A stretch of DNA of 33,470 nucleotides, taken from Ruminiclostridium sp. (GTDB lineage Bacteria > Bacillota > Clostridia > Oscillospirales > Ruminococcaceae). Shown here one piece after another: positions 2,544 through 32,730 of the stretch. The notes under the pieces are model-generated. The model saw nothing but the letters and a program-made list of their open reading frames with translations. It searched no databases and had not been told where the DNA came from. How positions within the stretch are numbered: the first letter of the stretch is position 1; each line of letters opens with the position of its first letter. The translations under genes and the position numbers were made by a program. Location of the stretch: contig JAFVBZ010000030.1 in assembly GCA_017479645.1 (NCBI GenBank), positions 1 to 33,470 on the forward strand, in the 5' to 3' direction.

Positions 2544-2572
2544 TTGCATTTTTCTGAATTTTATGGTATTAT
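2544..2572 (+). promoter_or_regulatory. promoter of leader RNA copy A
   Basis: TTGCAT (2544-2549) and TATTAT (2567-2572) are 17 bp apart and predict +1 at G2579, which is the first base of the closing helix of the leader RNA. The split copy has the same geometry (TTGATT-17-TAGAAT, 26796-26768). Confidence 0.7.
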
Positions 2573-2578
2573 ATTCTT

Positions 2579-2792
2579 GCGACATAAAATCTTATATTTT
2601 TACATAATTGCCGTACAATACCTATCGGTAAATGTACGGGCTCTTTTCCTATACGGCTTTTATGTGAAATAGGTTGAAAAGATTTTGTGTCGCAGCAAAT
2701 CGAGCTTTGTACTGTTTACAGGGTGCGTGGCTTGATTGCTGCGCACTTTTTGTTTTCAACCGGAAAGTACATTTAACGGAGGTGTTTTTATT
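2579..2792 (+). promoter_or_regulatory. structured leader RNA, intact copy A (candidate riboswitch with terminator)
   Basis: A 13-bp helix closes the element: GCGACATAAAATC (2579-2591) with GATTTTGTGTCGC (2681-2693). Inside are TTTTACATAA/TTATGTGAAA (2598-2607/2660-2669) and GCCGTA/TACGGC (2610-2615/2652-2657), with an unpaired GGCTCTTT at 2639-2646. Next come two competing hairpins. The long one pairs GCAGCAAATCGAGC (2692-2705) with GCTTGATTGCTGC (2730-2742). The short one pairs GTGCGT (2723-2728) with GCGCAC (2741-2746) and is followed at once by T5, so it looks like a terminator. The lipoprotein Shine-Dalgarno GGAGG follows at about 2778-2782. The split copy at 26643-26761 plus 17057-17130 has the same architecture with compensating changes. 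I do not recognise the class. Confidence 0.7.
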
Positions 2793-4280
2793 ATGTCCAA
2801 AAACAAAACTATGGCAATACTGCTTTCGGCGACTTTAGTGCTCGGGGGGTGCATAGGTGAGCAGGAAAAACCAGAAACAAATGTTAAAGCAACAGAGAAA
2901 AAAACAACACAAAATATAGAGGAACGAACCGAGATAACAGGAGAAACAACCGACGATAATTATACGGAAGGTCAGGACATTTCCGAGGAATACCCGAACG
3001 AACCGAAGGAAGACACGGACGAATACGTTGGAGAAGAATCCGATGACAATTTTATTTATAGTATATATGAAAAACATGCGGAAATCAAAGAGTTTATAGG
3101 AAAGGCTCGCAGAGAGCTTACTATTCCCGACGAATATAACAAATTGCCAGTAACAATAATAGACGAATTTGCTTGTAATAATAATAAATCTCTTACAAAG
3201 CTAACTATTGGTTCAAATGTTGAGAAAATCGGGGGAACATCTTTTTATGATAATGAGATGTTATTAAGTGTCAATTTCAAGAATCCAGAAATAATAAAAT
3301 GCATTGGAGCAAGTGCATTTAACGGTTGTGAGCTTCTTTCGGATTTCCCTTCCATTCTTCCAAATCTTGAGACAATTGGGAATAGTGCTTTCTACGGCAC
3401 AGCAATAAAGGAATTTACTGTACCGAGCAGGGTTGAAAAAATCGAGGAAAGTTCATTTGAATCTTGTAAAAAACTCAAAAAAATAATTATAGAAGACGGG
3501 GTTACAGCAATTGGAAATTCTGTGTTTAAAAATACCGGTCTTGAATCTATAATTGTTCCTGATTCTGTAACAGAAATGGGTTCAAAGATTTTTGAAGGTT
3601 GTAATGATTTAAAAGAAGCAACCATAGGAAGAGGTTTGAAAATACTTGGAGGTGTTTTCGAAAACTGTAATGCTCTAGAAAAGGTCACATTATCTGAAGG
3701 ATTGGAAGATATTTTATATAATGCTTTTTATAACTGTTCATCTTTGAAGCAGATAGAAATACCCAAAAGTGTAAAAAGATTATCTTCCAGCGATGACGTT
3801 GGCACAAATATTGGTACGTTTGTCGGTTGTGACTCGTTGGAAAAAGTAATTCTCCATGAAGGATTGGAAGAGATTGGCGATTATGCCTTTGCCGGTATTG
3901 CATCTACACCAAGCTTTAATAAAATCCCGTTATCATCTATAGTTATCCCTAATACTGTAAATACAATAGGTTATATGGCATTTGCAGGGTTGAAAAACAT
4001 CAAGGAAATAACTATACCCGGAAATGTGGTTATAATTTCAGGTGATGCATTTGCAGAATGTAATGCTTTAGAAAAGGTTATTATTAATGAAGGTGTTATT
4101 CAAATAGACTATGATGCCTTTGAATGGTGTGATAATCTTTCATTTGTTTCTTTACCAGACAGCCTTGTACAAATTGATTCACGTGCTTTTTCACGAGATG
4201 AAAATGTTAAGGTTCATTACAAGAATAATGTATATACATATGATAATCTGGAGGAATTATATAATCTTATAAATGGATAA
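2793..4280 (+). CDS. BspA-like leucine-rich repeat lipoprotein
   Basis: The start at 2793 is chosen because it lies 10 nt after GGAGG and gives a clean lipoprotein signal, MSKNKTMAILLSATLVLGGC, with Cys20 in an LGGC lipobox. An upstream in-frame codon would fall inside the leader terminator. Residues 25-90 form a Thr/Glu/Asp-rich spacer. Residues 95 to about 490 are tandem BspA-type (LRR_5) repeats of the form FxxCxxLxxIxIPxxVxxIGxxAF. Such proteins are anchored on the outer face of the membrane and mediate adhesion or binding of host or microbial partners. Expression should depend on the leader RNA at 2579-2792. The coding sequence is richer in A+T than typA and thrS. The specific ligand cannot be read from sequence. 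Confidence 0.9.
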   Translation: MSKNKTMAILLSATLVLGGCIGEQEKPETNVKATEKKTTQNIEERTEITGETTDDNYTEGQDISEEYPNEPKEDTDEYVGEESDDNFIYSIYEKHAEIKEFIGKARRELTIPDEYNKLPVTIIDEFACNNNKSLTKLTIGSNVEKIGGTSFYDNEMLLSVNFKNPEIIKCIGASAFNGCELLSDFPSILPNLETIGNSAFYGTAIKEFTVPSRVEKIEESSFESCKKLKKIIIEDGVTAIGNSVFKNTGLESIIVPDSVTEMGSKIFEGCNDLKEATIGRGLKILGGVFENCNALEKVTLSEGLEDILYNAFYNCSSLKQIEIPKSVKRLSSSDDVGTNIGTFVGCDSLEKVILHEGLEEIGDYAFAGIASTPSFNKIPLSSIVIPNTVNTIGYMAFAGLKNIKEITIPGNVVIISGDAFAECNALEKVIINEGVIQIDYDAFEWCDNLSFVSLPDSLVQIDSRAFSRDENVKVHYKNNVYTYDNLEELYNLING

Positions 4281-16385: not shown

Positions 16386-17036
16386 TTACTTTTTCTTGAC
16401 AACAAGGGTGATCTCCGCATAGTCACCGTTGTTCATGTATGCGCGTATTTTCGCCTTTCCTGCCTTTTTGCAGGTGACTTTGCCTTTGTCAACAGTGGCT
16501 ACTTTACTGTCGGTCGTTTTATAGGTAACTTTGCCGGTGTAGTTGCTTGCAAGTGCGGAGAAGTCAAACTCGTCGCCGACTTTCGCATTGAGAGCGAGGG
16601 AGATTGTGGGGGTGTTGTCGGGCTGGAAGCCGTAGTAGAAGTTTTTAAAATAAGCTTTTTTATCATTGTCAACTATCTTAATGTAATATGTTCCTTTTTT
16701 GTCAATTCTATGTGTACCTTCCTGTATCCCCACAAATCCGGCATTATCAATAATAGCTGCTCCGTTTTTATCAAGAAGTGATACTCTTGGATACCAAGTT
16801 GAGCCAGACCAATAGTTGTTATAATCAGAACAGTAGAACTGAATTGTACCTGAGTCTGGCAAAACTATTTTATATAATACTTCTGTATCATTCTTAAAAG
16901 TATGTGATACCACTTCAGTTGCACTTATTTTTATAGCATCGTCAAAAACGCTTTTCGCGCTCGCCTGCACTGTAAAACAGCACACCAACATTACCGCGGA
17001 CAGCAGAACTGCCGCTAACTTCTTAAATCTTACCAT
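16386..17036 (-). CDS. secreted protein with C-terminal Ig-like (Big_2) domain
   Basis: The ATG at 17036 lies 8 nt after GGAGG and gives a 216-residue protein with a signal peptide (basic MVRFKK, hydrophobic core, ASA-type cleavage near residue 25). Residues about 30-140 form a beta-rich domain resembling pre-peptidase or carbohydrate-binding beta sandwiches. Residues about 140-216 are a Big_2 domain (SKVATVDKGKVTCKKAGKAKI). Such proteins are exported and bind polymers or surfaces. Upstream are a hairpin and T6 closely matching the 3' half of the leader at 2579-2792. The promoter and aptamer half of this leader are now at 26643-26796, on the far side of the IME, so the gene is probably cut off from its native promoter. 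Confidence 0.85.
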   Translation of the reverse strand: MVRFKKLAAVLLSAVMLVCCFTVQASAKSVFDDAIKISATEVVSHTFKNDTEVLYKIVLPDSGTIQFYCSDYNNYWSGSTWYPRVSLLDKNGAAIIDNAGFVGIQEGTHRIDKKGTYYIKIVDNDKKAYFKNFYYGFQPDNTPTISLALNAKVGDEFDFSALASNYTGKVTYKTTDSKVATVDKGKVTCKKAGKAKIRAYMNNGDYAEITLVVKKK

Positions 17037-17056: not shown

Positions 17057-17130
17057 GAATTTTGTCGTGAAAGAAAAAAGTGCGCAGCATACAAGCCGCG
17101 CACCTGTAAAAATGCAAAGCTCATTTGCTG
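17057..17130 (-). promoter_or_regulatory. leader RNA, 3' (terminator) half of the split copy
   Basis: Read on the minus strand, CAGCAAATGAGC (17130-17119), a spacer with TTTACAG, GTGCGC (17103-17098), GGCTTGTATGCT, GCGCAC (17085-17080) and T6 (17079-17074) follow the same order as 2693-2751 in the intact copy. GCTTGTATGCTGC (17096-17084) can instead pair with the reconstructed GCAGCAAATGAGC through 12 of 13 positions. Similarity to the intact copy stops abruptly at CAGCAAA, the IME junction. Confidence 0.75.
17124..17130. repeat. IME attachment core, left
   Basis: TTTGCTG here is identical to 26637-26643. Left of it lies host leader sequence (GCAAAGCTCA); right of it lies element sequence. 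Joining the outer flanks through one copy restores a sequence matching the intact leader at 2579-2792. Confidence 0.8.
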
Positions 17131-17137
17131 GTACTTG

Positions 17138-17153
17138 ATAAAGAAGTATTCCA
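17138..17153 (+). repeat. IME subterminal inverted repeat, left
   Basis: ATAAAGAAGTATTCCA here matches the reverse complement of 26609-26624 at 15 of 16 positions. It sits 7 bp inside the left core and is a likely recombinase-binding arm. Confidence 0.65.
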
Positions 17154-17179
17154 TTTTTGCCATAAGGCTGCGTAGTTAA

Positions 17180-17242
17180 GCACTTTCGATGTTTCCTTAT
17201 ATGCGCCGCATCGTGCTGCGCTTTGGGAAACATCTTCAGTGC
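17180..17242. other. long dyad next to the recombinase stop
   Basis: GCACT-TTC-GATGTTTCC (17180-17196) pairs with GGAAACATC-TTC-AGTGC (17226-17242) through 14 positions around a GC-rich loop. It lies immediately after the recombinase stop and 50 bp inside the IME end. It may terminate the recombinase transcript or form part of the attachment site. Confidence 0.6.
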
Positions 17243-17243
17243 G

Positions 17244-18881
<1,638 letters not shown>

Positions 18882-18935
18882 TCAAACCTCTCTTTCCGAT
18901 TGATTACAGCAAATTCATAAAACTTCATCAATTTT

Positions 18936-18964
18936 ATTATACTCTCTCCAAAAGATTTTGTCAA
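18936..18964 (-). promoter_or_regulatory. sigma-A promoter of the IME recombinase
   Basis: On the minus strand TTGACA (18964-18959), a 17-bp spacer and TATAAT (18941-18936) give a start near 18929, about 48 nt before the ATG. Confidence 0.85.
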
Positions 18965-19027
18965 GCCTTTAAAGTTTTAATTCGGTGAATTTACTGTTAT
19001 CCTACATATCATTGTTTTAACCGCTGA

Positions 19028-19050
19028 TAGGTGTCGGCACGAAGCCGACA
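19028..19050. terminator. hairpin between tnpW and the recombinase gene
   Basis: GGTGTCGGC pairs with GCCGACACC around a five-base loop that reads TTCGT on the minus strand. It lies just after the TnpW stop. No clear T tract follows, so termination is possible but not certain. Confidence 0.5.
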
Positions 19051-19063
19051 CCAGCGGAATATT

Positions 19064-19273
19064 CTATGCCTGAAGCGCGGCTAATTTATCTATATCTTTA
19101 ATGATCAGCCTTTTAATCACATCTTCAAGCGTTTCCTTACAGTCAAGGTTAAATACTCTCCTGACCTTGTAAGTTGTATGCCCGATCTTGTAAACCGATA
19201 TGGAATCAGGAATCACGGGCTGTTCTGCCGTATTCGCTACGGCGGGCGCAGTGAGTAATTCATTGTTTCTCAA
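19064..19273 (-). CDS. TnpW-family transposon-encoded protein
   Basis: This 69-residue protein contains the block SVYKIGHTTYKVRRVFN followed by a short helix with TLEDVIKRLIIKDI, as in the TnpW proteins found beside TndX/TnpX recombinases in Clostridia elements. The function of TnpW is not established. The frame uses a TTG start at 19273 preceded by AGGAGG at a spacing of 6 nt; the nearby ATG is in another frame. It lies between the relaxase and recombinase genes, all in the same direction. Confidence 0.75.
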   Translation of the reverse strand: MRNNELLTAPAVANTAEQPVIPDSISVYKIGHTTYKVRRVFNLDCKETLEDVIKRLIIKDIDKLAALQA

Positions 19274-19354
19274 TTAAACCTCCTATTCTTACCGGCAAGC
19301 CGTATATATCTTGGCTTGGTCGGTCTTATTGTTTCTTCTCCTAACTATCCCCGT

Positions 19355-20890
19355 TTATCTCCGCAGACCCTTCTTTTTCTGTGTTATAGTCTGCTGTTCT
19401 GCTTTGTTTTCCTGCCGATCCTCCTCATTCTTCTCCTTTTCTGCCACGATCAGACGGGATATGTAATCACCCTCGCAAATGTCGTGATATGTATTAGCAA
19501 TCTCACGGTACATCTCGTACTGCTTCTTGCTGGTTTCAAAGGTGTGCTTCAATTCCGTCAACCGCGCGTCCAGTTCGGATTTTTCTTTTTTCAGCCGGTC
19601 AAGGTCAGCGCGGTTAGCAATACTATTGGCTTTTACCGTCTGCCCGCATAAGTTCAGCATTACCTGTTCTGCCGCGGAAAGCTCGCCTTTGTCAGAAAGT
19701 GCAAAATACTTTTCCGACTGTTCTATGATACCCTCCAAACGGCTGACCTCGGCTGTGACCGGATTTATCTGCTTGATAGCACCCTCATAGTCTTCTTTCA
19801 GATTTTCAATTTTGTGTTCCAGTTCTTCAATGGAGCCTATACCGTTTCTGCTGATTACCGATAATTGTGCGGAGAGAATATATACATCGTGGTCGTTATT
19901 CGGGAGATAGGGAAGGTCGGGGTTGCGCGGGCGCGGAATCTTTTTGCCTTCGGTTATCAGAATGTGAAGACGCTCGATAGTGCTAACATAGACTGCCTGT
20001 ATAGGTGACTGGCTATCGGGAGCCGCATTCATTTCAGCGTTGCTCAAGCCGTCCTTCCAAAGAATGCGGGACCGCAGTCTGTCCTCGGTGTAGTCCCCGC
20101 CCAGCGTTTTAAACCGCACGAACCTCTGCTGACCCTCCGCTTTTATTGCCGGAGCGTTCCCGTGCTTAATGGTATAACCTTTCTTTTCAAGCTCGGCATA
20201 CAACTCGTTAATGTCAGCGACTACCCCTATGAGCGAATCAATCTCGGCGCATATCTGCTGTTTCCATGAAGTACCCTTCCGGCGGTGCTCCCATTCATTA
20301 TACTTTAAGCCCTTACCTCCTTTCTGACGTTTAAGCAGCTCAATACCGAATACTTGACATACCCTGTCGGAATACTCACGGGCGTGCTCACGCGAAGTCC
20401 AGTTATCATAATACTTGCGTCCGGTCACGGAATAACTATTGATTACAATGTGACTATGTACATGAGCCTTGTCACAGTGGGTTGCTATTATGACCTGCAC
20501 ATCATCTCCGAAAGTTTTCTTCACGAATGCCTTTGCTATGGTGTGTGCCTTTTCAGGAGTTATAGTTTCGTCCGGCGAGAACGACTGGATATAATGAATA
20601 GCTTTCACGGGGCTCTTTCCTGAATACCGGAGGGGTTCATTATAGCTCTTACCTGAGAAATGCTCATATATCATCTTCATATTGAGATAGGCTTCATCAG
20701 GGTCGCATAGACAGTTCAGCGCAGATGTATAAAGCAGATCTTCCTGTCTTTCGCGGCAGCCTTGTATGCGCGCGTCGTGCGCGCTTTTGGGCTGACCGCT
20801 TAAATGCATCCTGCATTTGTCAGGATTTAACACATACCTCAAGCACCGGTTGACAGATGTATGGACAGCGCTTGATTTAAGTATCGGCAT
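19355..20890 (-). CDS. relaxase / mobilization nuclease
   Basis: This 511-residue protein nicks DNA at oriT and pilots the strand in mobilization. The N-terminus has the candidate catalytic Tyr19 in LRYVLNPDK. The three-His motif appears as ATHCDKAHVHSHIVINSY (His138, 143, 145, 147), and AIHYIQSFSPDE precedes it, as in PF03432 relaxases of Clostridia elements. The C-terminal 150 residues are a long coiled coil rich in Glu and Lys. The ATG at 20890 overlaps the end of mobC by 52 bp, with AAGGAGG 13 nt upstream, so translation is probably coupled. No conjugation ATPase or secretion genes accompany it. Confidence 0.92.
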   Translation of the reverse strand: MPILKSSAVHTSVNRCLRYVLNPDKCRMHLSGQPKSAHDARIQGCRERQEDLLYTSALNCLCDPDEAYLNMKMIYEHFSGKSYNEPLRYSGKSPVKAIHYIQSFSPDETITPEKAHTIAKAFVKKTFGDDVQVIIATHCDKAHVHSHIVINSYSVTGRKYYDNWTSREHAREYSDRVCQVFGIELLKRQKGGKGLKYNEWEHRRKGTSWKQQICAEIDSLIGVVADINELYAELEKKGYTIKHGNAPAIKAEGQQRFVRFKTLGGDYTEDRLRSRILWKDGLSNAEMNAAPDSQSPIQAVYVSTIERLHILITEGKKIPRPRNPDLPYLPNNDHDVYILSAQLSVISRNGIGSIEELEHKIENLKEDYEGAIKQINPVTAEVSRLEGIIEQSEKYFALSDKGELSAAEQVMLNLCGQTVKANSIANRADLDRLKKEKSELDARLTELKHTFETSKKQYEMYREIANTYHDICEGDYISRLIVAEKEKNEEDRQENKAEQQTITQKKKGLRR

Positions 20891-21177
20891 AAACAGTCAT
20901 AATCCTCCTTCATCTTTTCGTAGTCTGCTGCATAAACGCTGTTGATCTCGTTCGCCTTTTTTGCAAGCTGGTTGATATTGAAGCCTATAATGCGCAGACC
21001 GTTCAGAAGCCTTGACACCTCGGAAAAGTTAGTCATTGTGATCGAACCGTTTACGGATATCCTCCTGATAAAGGTCGCAGGCTTCAAAGATACAGAAGCG
21101 GCTCGCTGAACAACATGCTCCCATTCTTCCGGCGTGAAGGTAATCTCCTTGCGCCGTCCTCTCGTAGTTCTTTTCAT
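20839..21177 (-). CDS. mobC: relaxosome protein MobC
   Basis: The ATG at 21177 follows GGAGG by 6 nt and gives 112 residues, shorter than the open frame, whose upstream part is not conserved-looking. The sequence begins with a basic MKRTTRGRRKEITFT, continues with a ribbon-helix-helix-like region and the helical block LLNGLRIIGFNINQLAKKAN, which is typical of MobC. MobC helps the relaxase open DNA at oriT. It is the first gene of the mobilization operon, overlapping the relaxase gene. Confidence 0.88.
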   Translation of the reverse strand: MKRTTRGRRKEITFTPEEWEHVVQRAASVSLKPATFIRRISVNGSITMTNFSEVSRLLNGLRIIGFNINQLAKKANEINSVYAADYEKMKEDYDCLCRYLNQALSIHLSTGA

Positions 21178-21500
21178 AACACGCCTCCATTCAAATTGAT
21201 ACGGTTTCAGGCGATAGCCTGAGTGCATGGCGCGGCAGAAAGGGTTTGGGTTCCCTTGCTGACCTTTTTCGGGGGTAGCCGAAAAATGAGCGCCGCGTGA
21301 GAAAAATACCGGTATTTTTCTCTGCTTGCTAAATATCGTTTTCTTCACACCCTTAATTTTCGGGCTTTTCCGGCGCGTATGCGCCTTTGTCCTATGGTGC
21401 GCGGCAACTGTACGCGCCAAAGGTCGGGCTTCTGCCGTGAAGCGATAAAAACGGTGTTTTCATGACGAGATCACTTTCCTTTCGGGAATAATATAGCGGG
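21178..21500. other. upstream region of mobC, candidate oriT
   Basis: This stretch holds several inverted repeats: TCAGGC/GCCTGA near 21209-21222, TTTTTCGG/CCGAAAAA near 21266-21287, and a perfect 24-bp palindrome at 21299-21322. Dense hairpins directly upstream of mobC are where oriT is expected. No nic site can be assigned by eye, and no coding sequence is seen. Confidence 0.45.
21299..21322. repeat. perfect 24-bp palindrome
   Basis: GAGAAAAATACC followed by GGTATTTTTCTC is self-complementary over all 24 bases. It is 122 bp upstream of the mobC start, inside the candidate oriT region, and could be a protein-binding site. Confidence 0.85.
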
Positions 21501-23144
21501 TGCGGGGCGGAGTAGTCAGCGGTGAGTTATATATAACCGTAGCTGTGTCCGGTTCCGCGAGGGATAGAGCAAAATTAAATGATAAGTCCGTGACTGGATT
21601 TTGGCGTTGAAAAGGAAAATAATTTTCCCTCTCATAGTTTTAGGGGTTTTCGAGACGGTTTTTGGAACCCCCTGATCGCAACTTTGTGAATGTTGACCTA
21701 AAGCAAAGTTTATTTGCACTTGCGGTTGTGCAGATTGAATGCTGACGGACAAAGCGCTGTGATTATAAATCCAGTCGAGTGCGAGGTAAGCTGACTTTGA
21801 GTTTTGAGTGCTGTTCAGATTTTCGCAGGCATACGGTAAATATATATTTCGTCCGGAACCGTATTGTTCTGACCAAAGGACTATTGATGTTGTACCGTGA
21901 TACCGTGTCCGGCAAGGGATAGAGCCAAATGAACGTGTAATCCGTATATGCCGCTTTGCTCAATGGGCTGAAAAGTGGTGTCTTCGGATTTATCGGTTTC
22001 TGAAAGCCTAAGCCGGAAATGAGCATTTACTGCCATGACCGGTTTTGTTATGCTGCCGGACAAATGGTGCTGCGCTGTGACACCGTGTTTGCTGCGGCTG
22101 ACGGGAAAAGTGAAAACTGTGATCATATCTCCTGCTGTGACGGGTACATTACAAATGATGTTCAGCGCTGTGACCTGTCAAGTGCTATTATAGTGACAAA
22201 TGCTTACAAGTTCCGGAAGCGACTTAATTGGAGATAACGCCGGAAATGCATTTCAGATCATTAGCACCGGAAACGCTGACAAGCTATAACCGGTGTGGTA
22301 TCGAAGATTGCCCCATAGGAGCGCTTACAGATAAATGCTGCCAGACGCTGTGACAGATGTGGGAGATACTTTCCGGCAAAATTGCCTCTTAATCCGATCT
22401 TTTATTATCGTCCTATTTACCCCCTTCCATAATTATTGGGGTTTTGAAAGCGTTTTTGGCTACCCTGTTTTAGTGATTTCGTAGGATATGCTAAAAGAAA
22501 ATGATGTAAAGCACTTCTGATTGCTTGTTCTGACAATAGGTTGCATTAAGCTAACGGCTTCTGCAATAAAACTTGCCAAACCTATTTGTTTCCTATTTAC
22601 CCTTTCTCAATAATTAAGGCGTTTTGAAAGCACTTTTCGCACAATAAAAAGATAACTTTGGAAGATACATCAAAAGAAAATGAGGTGAGGCACTTCTGAT
22701 TGTTCAATCTGACTGCACTTTGTCGTAGGCTGACAGATTTGAGTTATCGCACCTTAACATCATCAAATGATACCAAAGGCTTTCATAATTATTAGTCATT
22801 CAGAGCCACTTTCTGAGGGGGCAAAAATGGCATTTCGTTAGATACGGCAAAAGAAAATGAATTGAAACAATATGTGTTGGATATTTTGTACACGAACGAT
22901 CATAGCCGACGGGATTCTGAAAAATGAAAAAGAATTACAAAGATTTGACCTGCCGAAAAAAGGTCCTCTCATTAATACCTACATTTTGAGCCATTTTATT
23001 AAGGCTGTTTTGCTTGATTTTCAAAAGTATGTAGGAATTCACAAATCAGCGAGTGCTTATCTGTGCATATCGTACAACAATGTCGCTGCTATCATTGCTA
23101 TAGTATGAAGGGTTTATAACTGCCACATATGGTTACGATATATA
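21501..23144. other. long noncoding, repeat-rich segment of the IME
   Basis: No ORF here has a ribosome binding site and a protein-like sequence. Degenerate repeats are visible. GTGTCCGG...AGGGATAGAGC occurs near 21547 and 21906, and GCGCTGTGA occurs near 21752, 22071 and 22163. Three units of about 178 bp occupy 22440 to about 22960. The segment separates the mobilization genes from the restriction cassette. Confidence 0.6.
22409..22960. repeat. degenerate tandem repeat, period about 178 bp
   Basis: The blocks CAAAAGAAAATGA at 22493, 22672 and 22849 are spaced 179 and 177 bp apart. The first two units also share ATAATTA, GTTTTGAAAGC (22441 and 22621, exactly 180 bp apart) and GCACTTCTGATTG (22511 and 22690). 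The third unit is more decayed. A related GGGGTTTTCGAGACGGTTTTTGG lies near 21640. Confidence 0.7.
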
Positions 23145-23158
23145 GTGTTATATAACAC
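23145..23158. promoter_or_regulatory. palindrome upstream of the R-M promoter, possible operator
   Basis: GTGTTATATAACAC is a perfect 14-bp palindrome 26 bp upstream of the -35 box of the methyltransferase promoter. No C-protein gene is present, so an operator role would involve another regulator or a methyltransferase. Confidence 0.45.
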
Positions 23159-23184
23159 AAATTATACAAAACGCCGAAAAACTA

Positions 23185-23213
23185 TTGACTTTTTGTTACT
23201 TTTGTAGTAAAAT
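23185..23213 (+). promoter_or_regulatory. promoter of the restriction-modification operon
   Basis: TTGACT (23185-23190), a 17-bp spacer and TAAAAT (23208-23213) predict a start near 23220, about 50 nt before the methyltransferase ATG. Confidence 0.75.
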
Positions 23214-23268
23214 AAGTAATAATATGGGTAATTGTCCATTTTCACCATTAACAATGGGGGTTGATTAT

Positions 23269-24105
23269 ATGCCGAAAAATAAACTTGTTGCTCCCGTGTT
23301 AAAGTGGGTAGGGGGGAAGCGGCAACTCCTACCTGATATTACCCCGTTATTACCTAAACCAATTAAATCTTATTGTGAGCCGTTTGTTGGCGGTGGGGCT
23401 GTACTTTTAGATTTGCAACCAAAAAAAGCCATTGTCAATGATATTAACAGTGATTTGATCCTTGTATATAAAGTTATCAGAGATAACGTTGACGAACTTA
23501 TTACCTTGCTCGGTCAATATCCGAATGAGGAAGAATTCTATTACAACTTGCGGAACATTGATAGAGAACAAGATAAATATGCAAGTTTGTCTGATGTTCA
23601 GAAAGCAGCAAGGGTTCTATATTTAAACAAAACTTGCTACAATGGTTTATACCGAGTAAACAATGCCGGCGAATTCAATAGTCCATTTGGCAAGTACAAA
23701 AATCCCAATATAGTAAATGAACCGGTACTTCGTGCGGTTAGTTTATATTTCAACGCTTCAGAAATAACATTTAGTTCTGTTGATTTTTCAGAGGTACTCG
23801 GAAATATAAAAAAAGGCACATTTGTATATTTAGATCCTCCTTATGATCCTTTATCTGACACATCAAGCTTCACGGGATATTCAAGAGGCGGCTTTAGTCG
23901 TGAACAGCAAATACAGCTGCGTGAATGCTGTGATTCGCTTAATGAACGCGGCATCAAGTTTATGTTGTCTAATTCGGCTACTGAATTTATTAAAGAACAA
24001 TACGCTAACTATCATATAAAAACGGTACAAGCTAAAAGGGCGATTAACTCTATCGCAAGCAAACGTGGAGATGTTGACGAGGTAATAATAACTAATTATG
24101 AATGA
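23269..24105 (+). CDS. Dam-like (D12 class) DNA adenine methyltransferase
   Basis: The ATG at 23269 lies 8 nt after GGGGG; in-frame codons before it are not conserved-looking and overlap the promoter. The 278-residue protein has LKWVGGKRQLLPDI, the SAM-binding EPFVGGG, the Dam-type block YLNKTCYNGLYRVN followed by GEFNSPFGKYKNP, and the catalytic DPPY in VYLDPPYDPLSDTSSF. The order is that of Dam and DpnM, so N6-adenine methylation at GATC or a GATC-like site is likely but not proven. It overlaps the restriction gene by 8 bp. Composition is AT-rich, unlike the host genes. Confidence 0.92.
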   Translation: MPKNKLVAPVLKWVGGKRQLLPDITPLLPKPIKSYCEPFVGGGAVLLDLQPKKAIVNDINSDLILVYKVIRDNVDELITLLGQYPNEEEFYYNLRNIDREQDKYASLSDVQKAARVLYLNKTCYNGLYRVNNAGEFNSPFGKYKNPNIVNEPVLRAVSLYFNASEITFSSVDFSEVLGNIKKGTFVYLDPPYDPLSDTSSFTGYSRGGFSREQQIQLRECCDSLNERGIKFMLSNSATEFIKEQYANYHIKTVQAKRAINSIASKRGDVDEVIITNYE

Positions 24106-25396
24106 TGTAGAAGAAAAAATGGAAACCGAAAACCTAACTGATTCCGCGTGGAGACTGCTATTTGAAAAATATGATATACTTAACCATATTGAACAAGAAG
24201 GGCAGTTTTTTATTTCTGCTTCACAAATTAAAGAGTTTCGCGAACCGCGATTAATGGCAAAATTTGATCATACAATCAATTTACCTAAACTATTTAAGAG
24301 AAATAAGCTATCAATTCTTCCTCTTACAAGGGGCGATTATGTAATATCTCACTTTGATGCCTATCATAAATTTGAAACGATATCAACTGAGATAACAAAT
24401 ATCAGCTTGCCGAACCACATACAAAGTTTAAATGTTGACTCTATCACAAGCGAAGCTGTTGCATTAAATTGCGCTTATGTTTCCGGAATTATGGGTGATT
24501 TTTTAGAAGATGATCAGCTTTATCCAACTGTAAGTGGGCGCATGGGTTCAGGAATATTTGATTTTAAAGTAAAGGATATAATTACTAACAGTCAAATAAC
24601 CGTTAAAGTTAATAATTCGCAAATAGAAATAGATGCTGGCTATGAAGGATTACAAAATCTTGCACTCATTGAGGCTAAACGCGATTTATCTGATGATTTT
24701 CTCGTCAGACAGCTTTATTATCCATTCAGAACTTGGAAGGATAGGGTAAGCAAGGTTGTAAAACCTATTTTCTTAGTATATTCTAATGGCGTTTTTCACC
24801 TTTATGAATATCGTTTTGACAATCCAAATGAGTATAGCTCTCTAACGCTTGTAAAACAAAAGAATTATACAATAGAGGAAGATACAACTATTACAGCCGA
24901 AGAAATCAACATGTTGTTAGATGATAACCAAATCACCAATGAACCACAAGTTGCTTTTCCGCAAGCAGATAGTTTTGAGCGCGTCATCAATCTATGTGAA
25001 TTACTGCAAGAGCATCCTATGTCAAGAGATGAAATAACTATCAATTATGCTTTCAATGTCAGACAGACAAATTACTATACTGATGCTGCTCGCTATTTAG
25101 GATTGGTGAACAAGCAAAGAGATGATGATATTACATTCAGCCTAACACCTAAAGGAAAGACAATTTTGCATCATCACTATAAGCAAAGGCAGTTAGCATT
25201 TGCCGAATCCATATTATCACATAAGGTATTTAAAGATTCACTGCGCCTGTGGTTTCGTCAAGGAGATATTTCGAAAGCAGATATTATAACAATAATGAAG
25301 CAAAATAATCTATACAAAGTCGAAAGCGAGAGTACATATATACGCAGAGCATCTACGATTAAAGGCTGGCTTGATTGGATTGTAGAACTAATGTGA
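24098..25396 (+). CDS. type II restriction endonuclease (PD-(D/E)XK)
   Basis: This 432-residue protein sits between two methyltransferase genes and starts at an ATG overlapping the first by 8 bp. The likely nuclease core is EIDAGYEG with Asp179 followed by ALIEAKRD with Glu192 and Lys194, a D-x12-ExK arrangement. The preceding region contains SGRMGSGIFDFKV. The N-terminal third looks winged-helix-like and may read the target. The C-terminal 130 residues resemble a helix-turn-helix regulator (SRDEITINYAFNVRQTNYYTDAARYLGLV). It is not similar to DpnII by eye. Assignment rests on context plus the ExK motif. Confidence 0.8.
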   Translation: MNDVEEKMETENLTDSAWRLLFEKYDILNHIEQEGQFFISASQIKEFREPRLMAKFDHTINLPKLFKRNKLSILPLTRGDYVISHFDAYHKFETISTEITNISLPNHIQSLNVDSITSEAVALNCAYVSGIMGDFLEDDQLYPTVSGRMGSGIFDFKVKDIITNSQITVKVNNSQIEIDAGYEGLQNLALIEAKRDLSDDFLVRQLYYPFRTWKDRVSKVVKPIFLVYSNGVFHLYEYRFDNPNEYSSLTLVKQKNYTIEEDTTITAEEINMLLDDNQITNEPQVAFPQADSFERVINLCELLQEHPMSRDEITINYAFNVRQTNYYTDAARYLGLVNKQRDDDITFSLTPKGKTILHHHYKQRQLAFAESILSHKVFKDSLRLWFRQGDISKADIITIMKQNNLYKVESESTYIRRASTIKGWLDWIVELM

Positions 25397-25432
25397 GCAT
25401 AAGCACTTAAATTTAGTTGTTTGGGTCATACA

Positions 25433-26170
25433 ATGATGATAAATAAATGGCAACCTGACGACTTTATGCTTGAAATGACAACACATTGGTCGTTTCCGGA
25501 ACATGGTCATTGGGCTACTCACGATTCATCGTGGCGAGGAAATTGGTCTCCGTACATTCCGAGAAATATCATACTTCGTTATTCCAAAGAGGGAGATTTA
25601 ATACTTGATCAGTTTGCAGGCGGTGGAACCACCCTTATCGAGGCTAAACTGCTTAACCGTAATATTGTTGGTGTTGATTGTAATGATGTTGCTATTGAAC
25701 GTTGTAAATTAAAGACCTCCTTCGACTACGAACCAGCGAAGGGCATAGTTTATATCAAAAAAGGCGATGCACGTAATCTTGACTTTATCAAAGATGATAG
25801 TATTGATCTTATATGCACGCATCCACCATATGCGGATATTATCAAATACAGTAGTATTCCAGAGGATCTGTCAAGATTGAATATTAAAGACTTCCTTGAA
25901 GAAATGAAGTCTGTTGCTTCTGAATGCATACGAGTTTTAAGAAAAGATAAGTTTTGTGCAATTCTTATGGGAGATACACGCCAAAAAGGATGTATGATTC
26001 CTATGAGCTTTGATGTGATGAAGATATTTCAAAATGTAGGTTTCACCTTAAAAGAGGTTATTATCAAAGAACAGCACAACTGTAAAGCAACAGGTTATTG
26101 GAAAGCAAATAGCGTTAAATATAATTTTTTATTAATAGCTCACGAGTATTTGTTTGTTTTTAGAAAATAG
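25433..26170 (+). CDS. second DNA methyltransferase of the R-M cassette
   Basis: This protein of about 245 residues has the SAM-binding motif DQFAGGGTT and the catalytic motif THPPYADIIKYS, as in N6-adenine/N4-cytosine methyltransferases of the N4/N6 family. The conserved aromatic N-terminus WSFPEHGHWATHDSSWRGNWSP probably helps target recognition. The ATG at 25433 is preferred over a TTG at 25421; no strong Shine-Dalgarno is seen, only GGGT. It starts 36 bp after the endonuclease stop. One endonuclease with two methyltransferases suggests either an asymmetric target or, as in DpnII-type systems, a second enzyme with a different DNA substrate. Confidence 0.87.
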   Translation: MMINKWQPDDFMLEMTTHWSFPEHGHWATHDSSWRGNWSPYIPRNIILRYSKEGDLILDQFAGGGTTLIEAKLLNRNIVGVDCNDVAIERCKLKTSFDYEPAKGIVYIKKGDARNLDFIKDDSIDLICTHPPYADIIKYSSIPEDLSRLNIKDFLEEMKSVASECIRVLRKDKFCAILMGDTRQKGCMIPMSFDVMKIFQNVGFTLKEVIIKEQHNCKATGYWKANSVKYNFLLIAHEYLFVFRK

Positions 26171-26230
26171 GATTCTTATATATAATCAAAAGACTATTAT
26201 AAACAGTAACAGTTATTATATTATGTAAAA

Positions 26231-26256
26231 CCCCGTTGATCATTTGATCAACGGGG
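26231..26256. terminator. bidirectional terminator after the R-M cassette
   Basis: CCCCGTTGATC (26231-26241) pairs perfectly with GATCAACGGGG (26246-26256) around ATTT. On the minus strand TTTTAC follows, so it ends the DUF6809 gene well. It may also stop the R-M operon. Confidence 0.8.
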
Positions 26257-26265
26257 TGATGTGGT

Positions 26266-26532
26266 TTATTCAAATATTAGCACATTAATCATCATCAATG
26301 CTCCTAGACGGAAACCTTCCTCAAAATCCTGCAACCCCTCACAAGCTGCTGTAACATGGATCGCTTCAGCATAGCTTTCGAGAAGCTCCTTGCAGTCAGG
26401 GTACTTTGCGAGAATCGCTTCCTCGTACTGTACAACTTCCTCTTTGGCTTTCAGATAGCGCTCTGTGGTCGGTGTCGGGCGTGAGCAAGGGCTGATCTCT
26501 CCGTAGTAGAGTTTTTCAAGTATTGATTCCAT
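26266..26532 (-). CDS. DUF6809 family small protein
   Basis: This 88-residue helical protein opens with ESILEKLYYGEISP, has a central coiled region and ends with EEGFRLGALMMINVLIFE. The LYYG...P start and FRLGA end are typical of DUF6809 proteins, which occur widely on mobile elements of Clostridia; their function is unknown. GGAGG precedes the ATG by 7 nt. The gene is at the right end of the IME and faces left. About 105 nt upstream of it, across the junction, is the host aptamer half with its promoter, so after integration this gene lies downstream of a host promoter. Confidence 0.8.
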   Translation of the reverse strand: MESILEKLYYGEISPCSRPTPTTERYLKAKEEVVQYEEAILAKYPDCKELLESYAEAIHVTAACEGLQDFEEGFRLGALMMINVLIFE

Positions 26533-26608
26533 AATGTTTTCCTCCGTTAGTCAAGGTTGTTTAATGCTGATGATGTTTACATGATCTGCTGTAACCAATC
26601 TTTAACTT

Positions 26609-26624
26609 TGGAAAACTTCTTTAT
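26609..26624 (-). repeat. IME subterminal inverted repeat, right
   Basis: The reverse complement of this stretch, ATAAAGAAGTTTTCCA, matches 17138-17153 at 15 of 16 positions. It lies 12 bp inside the right core. Confidence 0.65.
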
Positions 26625-26636
26625 TAACAATTAGCT

Positions 26637-26643
26637 TTTGCTG
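26637..26643. repeat. IME attachment core, right
   Basis: TTTGCTG is identical to 17124-17130. Right of it begins host sequence CGACACAAATTTC, the 3' strand of the closing helix of the split leader RNA. Confidence 0.8.
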
Positions 26644-26761
26644 CGACACAAATTTCTTTCAACAATGGTTATTAGCATACGAAGAAAGAGCCTGCAAATT
26701 TACCATAGTAGTATGATAAATTTGTATGCTAAAATTCCATTGTTATTAAAATTTATGTCGC
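26643..26761 (-). promoter_or_regulatory. leader RNA, 5' (aptamer-like) half of the split copy
   Basis: Read on the minus strand, GCGACATAAATTT (26761-26749) pairs with AAATTTGTGTCGC (26655-26643) over 13 bp. Inside, AACAATGG/CCATTGTT and TTAGCATAC/GTATGCTAA form two further helices, and an unpaired AGGCTCTTTC lies at about 26693-26684. The helices have different bases from the copy at 2579-2693 but the same positions, while the outer GCGACATAAA, TTTGTGTCGC and GGCTCTTT are identical. That is the pattern of a conserved folded RNA. Its downstream hairpins are separated from it by the IME and lie at 17057-17130. Confidence 0.75.
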
Positions 26762-26767
26762 AAGTAT

Positions 26768-26796
26768 ATTCTACCATATTCTGTCCGAAAAATCAA
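26768..26796 (-). promoter_or_regulatory. promoter of the split leader RNA
   Basis: On the minus strand TTGATT (26796-26791), a 17-bp spacer and TAGAAT (26773-26768) predict +1 at 26761, the first base of the closing helix, exactly as in the intact copy. Confidence 0.7.
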
Positions 26797-31119: not shown

Positions 31120-31152
31120 TGAGCAGCTACTTTGAAAGGAAGGAGGGAGAAA

Positions 31153-32730
31153 ATGATAAATGCCGCGATTTATGTGAGACTTTCCGACGAGGACAGGAAC
31201 AAGAGACTGCGCACAGACGAGAGTGAGAGTATTCAGAATCAGCGCTCTTTACTGCGTGAGTACTGCAGGGAAAGGGGTTGGAGCATTTACGACGAATACT
31301 GCGATGAGAACTACAGCGGTACGGACTTTGACAGACCGGACTTTCAGCGCATGCTACGAGACTGCGAAAGAGGATATGTCAATGTCGTTCTGTGCAAGTC
31401 TCAATCCCGCTTCTCACGCGATCTCGGAGTGATCGAGGAGTACATACACAACAAGTTTATCGAGTGGGGCGTGCGGTTTGTAAGCATCGTCGATCATGCA
31501 GATACAGATGACGCTTACAACAAACGCGCCCGTCAGATAAACGGACTCAACAACGAATGGTACTGTGAGGACACTTCGCTGAATGTAAGGCGGATTCTCC
31601 GTCACAAGCGCGAGAACGGACAGTTCACAGGTTCATTTGCTCCCTACGGTTACCGGATAGATCCTGCCGACAAGCATCATCTGATAATCGATCCGGAGAC
31701 GGCTCCTGTGGTAAAGGACATCTATCTGCGATATCTGTCGGGACAAGGGTATAAAAGAATAGTCGGCGAGCTTAACAGCGCCGGCATACCTAATCCCACA
31801 GAGTACAAGCACAGGAACGACAGCAGCTATGTGAACAGGAATGCAGACAGCAGTCCCGACAGCGGGCTCTGGACGCTGACGACAGTTGCTTCGATACTGC
31901 ATAATGAAGTTTATATGGGAACTCTCGCGCAGGGGAGGACTCACTTTGTAAGCTATAAGAATCATCACAGGCTGAAGGTGCCGAAAGACGAGTGGATAAG
32001 AACTCCGAATGCGCACGAGGCTATTGTTGACGCAGAGATTTGGGAAGCCGTCAGTGACATGCTTGAAAGCAAGAATCACCGCGGAAGCTGTGTGACAGGC
32101 GAGATCCCCGCGCTGTCCGGCAAGGTGAAATGCGCCTTGTGCGGCAGACCTATGAAACGCAATACATATTATAATAAGAAGCACACCAGCAGGTACTACA
32201 ATCTTCGGTGTGCGGCATATCAGAAGGGGACAGACAACTGCCCCAACAGCTCCGCTATGAGCGGTATGGAGCTTGAAGAACAAGTCGTTGCAGCTATAAA
32301 TGAGCATATCAGCGAGTACTGCGAATCCGATAAGCTGAAAATGAACGATAAGCTTACAGATCAGATAAATGCCGCAAAACAGGCAATTAAAAACAAAGAT
32401 AACATTATTGAAAAGAAACAGACATTTTTATCCCGTGCCTATGAGGACAAGCTCGAAGGCAGGATAACGCAGGAGGAATACGAACTCCATGCAGCAAAGT
32501 TCAGAGAAGATATAGACAAGAATAACGCAGAGAAAGAAAAGCTTCGGTCACATCTTGACCGGCTTAGTGACGAGCTCGGAAGAGCCGGAAATGTACAGGA
32601 AAAGATCTCCCGTTTCTGTAAGATCGAAAAGCTCGATTATACTATAGCAGATGAGTTCATCAGCAATATTTACATCGGCATGAAGGAGCCGGACGGAACT
32701 CGTGAGATACAGATAGAGTGGAATTTTTAA
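31153..32730 (+). CDS. large serine recombinase 2
   Basis: The ATG at 31153 follows GGAGGG and gives 525 residues. The N-terminal resolvase domain has AAIYVRLSDEDRN with catalytic Ser11, ENYSGTDFDRPDFQRML and KSQSRFSRD. The recombinase domain includes HKRENGQFTGSFAPYGYRID. A zinc ribbon follows (VKCALCGRPMKR...YNLRCAAYQKGTDNC), then a coiled coil at about 410-480. It differs from the IME enzyme (17244-18881) and lacks its DUF4368 end. It may belong to a second, decayed element that includes the HTH genes and the fragment at 28664-29131. Its attachment sites are not evident. Confidence 0.92.
   Translation: MINAAIYVRLSDEDRNKRLRTDESESIQNQRSLLREYCRERGWSIYDEYCDENYSGTDFDRPDFQRMLRDCERGYVNVVLCKSQSRFSRDLGVIEEYIHNKFIEWGVRFVSIVDHADTDDAYNKRARQINGLNNEWYCEDTSLNVRRILRHKRENGQFTGSFAPYGYRIDPADKHHLIIDPETAPVVKDIYLRYLSGQGYKRIVGELNSAGIPNPTEYKHRNDSSYVNRNADSSPDSGLWTLTTVASILHNEVYMGTLAQGRTHFVSYKNHHRLKVPKDEWIRTPNAHEAIVDAEIWEAVSDMLESKNHRGSCVTGEIPALSGKVKCALCGRPMKRNTYYNKKHTSRYYNLRCAAYQKGTDNCPNSSAMSGMELEEQVVAAINEHISEYCESDKLKMNDKLTDQINAAKQAIKNKDNIIEKKQTFLSRAYEDKLEGRITQEEYELHAAKFREDIDKNNAEKEKLRSHLDRLSDELGRAGNVQEKISRFCKIEKLDYTIADEFISNIYIGMKEPDGTREIQIEWNF

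Follow-up and report, generated by a model that had tools for sequence, protein, structure and literature searches.

A multi-copy leader RNA of gut Clostridia with covarying, competing folds: probably a transcription attenuator class absent from Rfam 15

A structured leader upstream of an LRR_5 gene and its interrupted second copy

The window analysed here is a stretch of 33,470 nt from a Ruminiclostridium draft genome. On its plus strand, a gene for an LRR_5 (BspA-type) lipoprotein-like protein (2793-4280; domain match, with signal features including a lipobox-like N terminus read by eye) starts with the ATG at 2793, behind a Shine-Dalgarno sequence GGAGG at 2778-2782 that was likewise read by eye. 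The gene is preceded by a leader at 2579-2751 on the same strand. The RNA element that an earlier note on this DNA had described at this place is confirmed as real, and the observation reaches further than first described. As that note stated, the promoter (2544-2572) has a 17-bp spacer, which separates TTGCAT (2544-2549) from an extended -10 TG..TATTAT (TATTAT at 2567-2572); it was identified by its sequence and by its register in 136 upstream regions. By eye, six bases separate TATTAT from 2579, the first base of the closing helix P1 and the predicted +1, and the promoter register suggests that transcription would start there. P1 pairs 2579-2593 with 2679-2693 in 15 contiguous pairs (read by eye), not in the 13 of the earlier note, whose placing of the +1 at the first base of this helix fits the register.

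Within P1, which is based on the predicted fold and on covariation, the fold continues with P2, whose 5' strand (2598-2612, pairing through 2598-2607 and 2610-2612) is predicted to meet a 3' strand at 2655-2669 (2655-2657 and 2660-2669), again with covariation, and with the apical hairpin P3 (2613-2637; 5' strand 2613-2622, loop 2623-2626, 3' strand 2627-2637; fold and covariation). The predicted fold of 2578-2698 has a z of -7.0, and 0 of 200 dinucleotide shuffles were equally good. The 3' strand of P3 and the toehold GGGCTC (2638-2643) make up an exchange strand (2627-2643), which covaries with the equivalents of 2702-2719, its long-range partner GAGC..GTTTAC. The earlier note had seen an unpaired GGCTCTTT here; GGGCTC is indeed conserved, but the GGCTC strand within it can pair with the segment in front of the terminator. 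The short hairpin with a T tract before GGAGG, also described earlier, is an intrinsic terminator (2723-2751; arms 2723-2731 and 2738-2746, T run 2747-2751) by sequence, terminator picking and alignment. The fold and a complementarity test point to a second partner for the 3' strand of P1 in the terminator 3' arm. Finally, the antiterminator 5' strand GCAGCAAATCGAGC (2692-2705) is predicted to pair with the terminator loop and GCTGC (2730-2742), in agreement with its covariation with the loop.

A second copy lies on the minus strand in two pieces. The 5' piece (26637-26795; sequence, fold and homologue alignment) holds the promoter and P1-P2-P3-P1' up to CAGCAAA, whilst the 3' piece (17074-17130; sequence and homologue alignment) holds CAGCAAA, GAGC, the long-range partner and the terminator; the leader part thus runs from 26761 to about 26637 and then from 17130 to about 17074. 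Its target on the same strand is a Big_2 exported protein (16386-17036; domain match and a signal-peptide-like N terminus read by eye). The minus-strand fold of 26763-26639 has a z of -8.4, with 0 of 200 dinucleotide shuffles equally good, and uninterrupted homologues (L123, for example) align with each piece. The copy that the earlier note had placed before the Big_2 gene is real, but it is interrupted by an integrated mobile element.

This mobilizable element (17131-26636, about 9.5 kb, no strand assigned) was delimited by domains and homologue alignment and is inserted between P1' and the tail of the leader. It encodes a large serine recombinase, a MobA/VirD2-type relaxase, a NikA-like protein and DNA methyltransferases, and the 7 bp CAGCAAA are common to both of its flanks. 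A related element ends directly beside the tail of another leader copy at L388, in genome G030. Because both insertions are at about the same place, the CAGCAAA region may, from these two cases, be an integration target or attachment site; a third such element end (L391) does not adjoin any leader. Adjacent MethyltransfD12, DUF6997/DUF7226 and N6_N4_Mtase genes at 23185-26170 in the element are possibly restriction-modification cargo. About 105 bp over the start of the DUF6809 gene at the element end (26266-26532) are found again in 13 of the 72 genus genomes, some of which have several copies, and a second serine-recombinase-like ORF, judged by its first residues only, lies near the window end (31132-32730).

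Copies, distribution and covariation of the leader

The covariance model R1 was built from five copies of the window's own genome and carries annotation for three helices only, namely P1, an apical stem of four pairs and the terminator; five copies were taken because MAFFT aligned the variable arms badly when given nine from this genome. In the own draft genome R1 found 16 places with E-values of up to 1, among which one only echoes another copy on the antisense strand; the genome holds about 14 leader copies, 13 intact and one split. Diverged copies were recovered by BLAST too; on reading, the weak BLAST matches on C81, C180, C173 and C249 of this genome contained no leader. The earlier note had proposed a covariance-model search for homologues, and they were found in 36 of 72 genus genomes (136 places, E up to 0.001) and beyond; 100 of the 122 genus places outside the own genome were retrieved for analysis. 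At E up to 1e-4, the leader occurs in 31 of the 298 genomes, and 18 of the 115 genera, that make up a sample of the family. A second model with the same kind of structure annotation (R2, from 104 matches) matched 81 of 245 genomes in an order sample (51 of 133 genera) and 63 of 245 in a class sample (42 of 157 genera). Both samples include some nearer relatives, copy numbers in them are lower bounds since twelve candidates were scored per genome, and the E-values of both models are rough. Read by eye, the distant R2 matches keep the leader anatomy.

A strict DNA pattern found at least 119 stretches in named genomes. All 80 matches listed are titled MAG, and their labels are mostly Ruminococcaceae, Oscillospiraceae, Ruminococcus, Ruminiclostridium, Monoglobus or Clostridia, with one Flexilinea. 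Partial matches to L099 occur in two unannotated faecal phage records, and the strict pattern found one viral contig; the window leader has no plasmid match, and a plasmid or phage origin was rejected as a general explanation.

In Rfam 15 the 33,470-nt window gave no match at gathering score, in keeping with the novelty that the earlier note had claimed, and a loose threshold on 2400-2900 returned only sub-threshold matches (best E 0.28), none of them credible. At gathering score, 20 and 14 loci gave no match over their leaders; at the loose threshold, four loci gave sub-threshold matches only, none over leaders. The scans of window and loci also agree with the earlier failure to recognise a T-box or c-di-GMP RNA, and a known Rfam class is ruled out by these absent matches. 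Nothing recognisable as the leader was found in searches of main texts in the open-licence PMC literature, the unnamed motifs of PMC8040213 aside. Judged by these sequence searches, the class is apparently uncatalogued in Rfam 15, though not certainly unpublished, and the MAG-only provenance of the 80 matches listed may be the reason why isolate-based screens missed it.

Using 2000 permutations, we asked whether the two strands of a helix fit each other better within a copy than when each is matched to the partner strand of a different copy. In 73 non-redundant genus copies (111 of 113 copies used; L078 and L143 excluded for a wrongly picked terminator) all six pairings won, with 0 of 2000 permutations as good: z was -30.7 for P1, -36.9 for P2, -11.2 for P3, -11.0 for the long-range pairing, -13.5 for the antiterminator and -11.9 for the terminator, and four control strand pairs were null (z -0.1 to -0.9). 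The six pairings also won, again with 0 of 2000 permutations as good (z -3.7 to -16.8; controls -1.2 to 0.2), in 28 further non-redundant copies from named genomes, for which the P1 windows were fixed at 15 nt; of 79 copies placed there, 54 were used, and 37 of these were new to the first set. In 57 non-redundant distant copies found with R2 (67 of 77 used), each helix again had 0 of 2000 permutations as good, with z of -28.6 for P2, -10.5 for the long-range pairing, -8.0 for the antiterminator and -1.5 to 0.4 for controls; R2 itself includes none of these three pairings. The z values of P1 (genus and distant sets) and of the terminator (all sets) are inflated, since these strands were picked by complementarity, and the copies are related by descent, which the permutation ignores and against which the null control pairs serve as guard.

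In the 104-row alignment, which was fitted to the modelled structure, 92.2% of cells are paired; both partners vary in 20 of 23 pairs, and no shuffle out of 500 reaches any of five measures. P1 is paired in 98.5%, the terminator in 99.2% and the four modelled P3 pairs in only 58.7%; the third P1 pair is GC in 69 copies, CG in 18, UA in 12 and AU in 3. The argument that changing but paired stems mark a selected RNA fold is borne out for P1, P2, P3 and the terminator in three copy sets. Two covarying pairings go beyond the original prediction, namely that of the P3 3' strand and GGCTC with the pre-terminator segment and that of the post-P1 segment with the terminator loop.

These data also bear on the idea that the copies are a mobile palindromic, MITE-like repeat without RNA function. 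The inverted ends are GCGACA/TGTCGC, the copies are scattered, and one of them is weakly matched on the opposite strand too. However, stem bases change while the pairing stays, promoter and gene spacing are in register, and non-palindromic pairings covary, by which such a repeat is already contradicted; we rejected it on the covariation and regard it as hardly credible.

Promoter register, competing folds and a proposed strand exchange

We aligned 136 distinct upstream regions on the GC that opens P1, so that +1 and +2 were fixed by choice. T is found at -12 in 95%, A at -11 in 94% and T at -7 in 96%; in 107 of the 136, six bases separate the best -10 from P1. Tandem arrays of two or three leaders precede one gene at L184, L186, L188, L327, L329, L331 and L341, each leader with its own promoter and terminator. 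Because of the fixed register and the own promoters of tandem copies, the sequences suggest that promoter, RNA and terminator belong together as a single unit. Such units could be mainly autonomous small RNAs, the downstream genes being read by leakage only: every copy read, tandem units included, has its own promoter and terminator, and a few copies are without a close ORF. Most start codons, however, lie 20-60 nt behind the terminator, the usual gap to a Shine-Dalgarno-led ORF, exported targets are enriched and the antiterminator covaries, and we consider autonomous small RNAs improbable.

Judged by its sequence, the leader works like an attenuator. An intrinsic terminator lies between promoter and gene, and all 113 copies yielded a terminator-like hairpin, which was wrongly placed in two. 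In silico there is also a competing antiterminator, seen in covariation and in near-equal predicted energies, to both of which the caveats given here apply. With the long-range pairing left out, the predicted energies of the terminated and non-terminated folds of 101 copies differ by a mean of -0.07 kcal/mol (sd 3.8), and the non-terminated fold is favoured in 49; swapping terminators between copies gives a predicted state difference of +4.4 kcal/mol. In W1 the non-terminated fold is predicted to be favoured by 4 kcal/mol, its antiterminator taking the terminator loop and about five bases and breaking part of the terminator. Because the antiterminator usually takes only about five, few bases of the terminator arm are paired upstream: at least 6 nt of the 3' arm are so paired in 10 of 101 non-terminated folds and in 33 of 300 with swapped terminators.

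An antiterminator that reaches deep into P1 and uses its entire 3' strand is disfavoured, as P1 is retained in 98 of 101 predicted non-terminated folds. The P1 3' strand and the terminator 3' arm are complementary and weakly covarying (z -3.7 in 90 copies; the test drew on 150 of 165 copies), and this complementarity may explain the sequence conservation of P1. The terminator loop, which is left unpaired in the terminator fold, nevertheless covaries with the post-P1 segment (z -12.4, or -9.9 for loops of at least 5 nt; controls 1.5 and -0.7), and the antiterminator slice 'AT lower', GCAGCAA against the loop/3' arm, gave no covariation (z -0.7). The toehold and migration parts of the long-range pairing covary separately (z -6.2 and -7.7, 101 copies). 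This pairing crosses P1/P2, and its duplex is predicted to be stronger than P3 in 101 of 101 copies, but with a longer strand supplied. Three either-or choices result: the P3 3' strand with GCUC pairs within P3 or at long range, GAGC pairs at long range or, with the bases before it, with the terminator loop, and the tail forms terminator or antiterminator.

The leader is thus probably a cis-acting transcription attenuator of a class absent from Rfam 15 that switches by strand exchange. Behind this reading stand the copies, the covariation of six helices, their exclusivity by common bases, the near-equal predicted states, the promoter register and the position before genes; the direction of the switch, a toehold exchange during transcription and a cellular signal as its setter are what we infer. 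The 5' domain would fold into a rod, P1-P2-P3. In the OFF state, the 3' strand of P3, together with the GCUC toehold next to it, would detach from the hairpin to pair with GAGC..UGCAUUUUUAC immediately 5' of the terminator; with GAGC occupied and unavailable to the antiterminator, the terminator, whose 5' arm follows directly, would form. In the ON state, P3 would keep its strand, and GCAGCAAU..GAGC would pair with the loop of the terminator and the beginning of its 3' arm, breaking the terminator.

Target genes, candidate signals and known leader RNAs

Domains were sought in 101 of the 106 genus target proteins that have 60 aa or more; 23 match LRR_5, 19 Big_2 and 7 fn3, and a HupY-type LRR adhesin model matches 22. 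The PARCEL-repeat surface protein model TIGR02167 matches 11 of the 101. A crude rule based on hydrophobicity and a lipobox was applied to targets no shorter than 100 aa. It classes 81 of 100 in the genus set and 38 of 42 in the named set, which overlaps with the genus set, as exported or membrane proteins, compared with 73 of 368 other ORFs from named-genome loci. In distant families the count is 20 of 32, or 24 of 51 with short targets included, and the other targets there include zinc-ribbon, very small and other cytosolic proteins. The position in front of exported proteins that the earlier note had given to the RNA holds in its own genus and is weaker in distant families; as predicted from sequence, the targets are mainly exported proteins in the genus and more mixed elsewhere.

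Tentatively, and with slightly less than even confidence, we propose that these leaders are widespread, uncatalogued natural toehold strand-exchange switches: self-contained promoter-RNA-terminator cassettes, in up to at least a dozen copies per genome and in many families of gut Clostridia, that would set surface and accessory proteins by one common signal. If this is true, the multi-copy switch represents a surface-protein regulon hidden from annotation in common, mostly uncultured gut and rumen Clostridia. The covariance model maps this regulon, and since the two predicted states are nearly equal, a candidate trigger, be it a metabolite, a protein or an RNA, can be tested in vitro.

The earlier note had proposed a new leader RNA class with a promoter, an aptamer-like fold and a terminator switch. 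Promoter, fold and switch are supported by the many homologues, the covariation including that of the loop and the absence of an Rfam match. For the term 'aptamer-like' no such support was seen: away from P1 and the switching strands, identity nowhere rises above about 80%, as measured in gapless windows that length variation may blur, and conservation is only moderate in an AAUA-like stretch after P1 and a U-rich stretch after the toehold. Such moderate conservation speaks against a classical pocket and would be compatible with a protein, RNA or physical cue.

Two kinds of control were weighed. In a small-molecule riboswitch, which is compatible with the attenuator reading, P1-P2-P3 would be a putative aptamer and a metabolite would shift the balance of terminator and antiterminator. 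The leader position, the many copies per genome, the tandem copies and a P1 closing-helix strand complementary both to its 5' partner and to the terminator 3' arm fit this picture, but the highly diverse targets and the lack of an unpaired position above about 80% identity (gapless windows, switching strands aside) do not, and we consider it possible but rather unlikely. Alternatively, a protein or RNA acting in trans could control the attenuator by holding P3 or by masking the toehold and the U-rich stretch; the conserved part consists mostly of the exchange strands and this stretch, but the partner is hypothetical, and such control is a candidate that we also find doubtful. As for c-di-GMP, a GGDEF match is absent in 11 of 33 RNA-bearing genomes versus 1 of 26 without an RNA match, some genomes being incomplete. 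These 11 carriers speak against a c-di-GMP riboswitch, and on them c-di-GMP was rejected as a general explanation of a common signal; from the genome sequences it appears unlikely as a general signal. RF01051 gave no match in the own genome, yet none in control genomes either.

Some riboswitches, among them those for fluoride and ZTP/ZMP, couple terminator expression platforms with a pseudoknot or strand exchange. Like these, the RNA described here lies in a leader and has mutually exclusive folds and a long-range pairing beside the terminator; unlike these, it has no evident invariant pocket or Rfam match, its exchange strand is an arm of the apical hairpin with a toehold, and the promoter lies within the conserved unit. 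T-box leaders are attenuators of Firmicutes with an antiterminator and a terminator. The leader has the same competition of terminator and antiterminator, but Rfam scans of the window and of the 20 + 14 loci gave no T-box match, and no tRNA-linked gene theme was seen. c-di-GMP riboswitches occur in several copies per genome before surface-protein genes, as the leader does, but neither RF01051 nor RF01786 matched in the window or the loci, and the carriers lacking GGDEF are a further difference. The Clostridiales-1 and Gut-1 RNAs, which according to PMC2864571 come from gut Clostridiales or from the human gut, are uncharacterised as well, and the leader resembles them in this and in its occurrence in gut Clostridia; neither family gave a match over any leader scanned. 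In a distant genome, a Gut-1 RNA (RF01706) lies at 1905-1976 of L325, near a leader copy.
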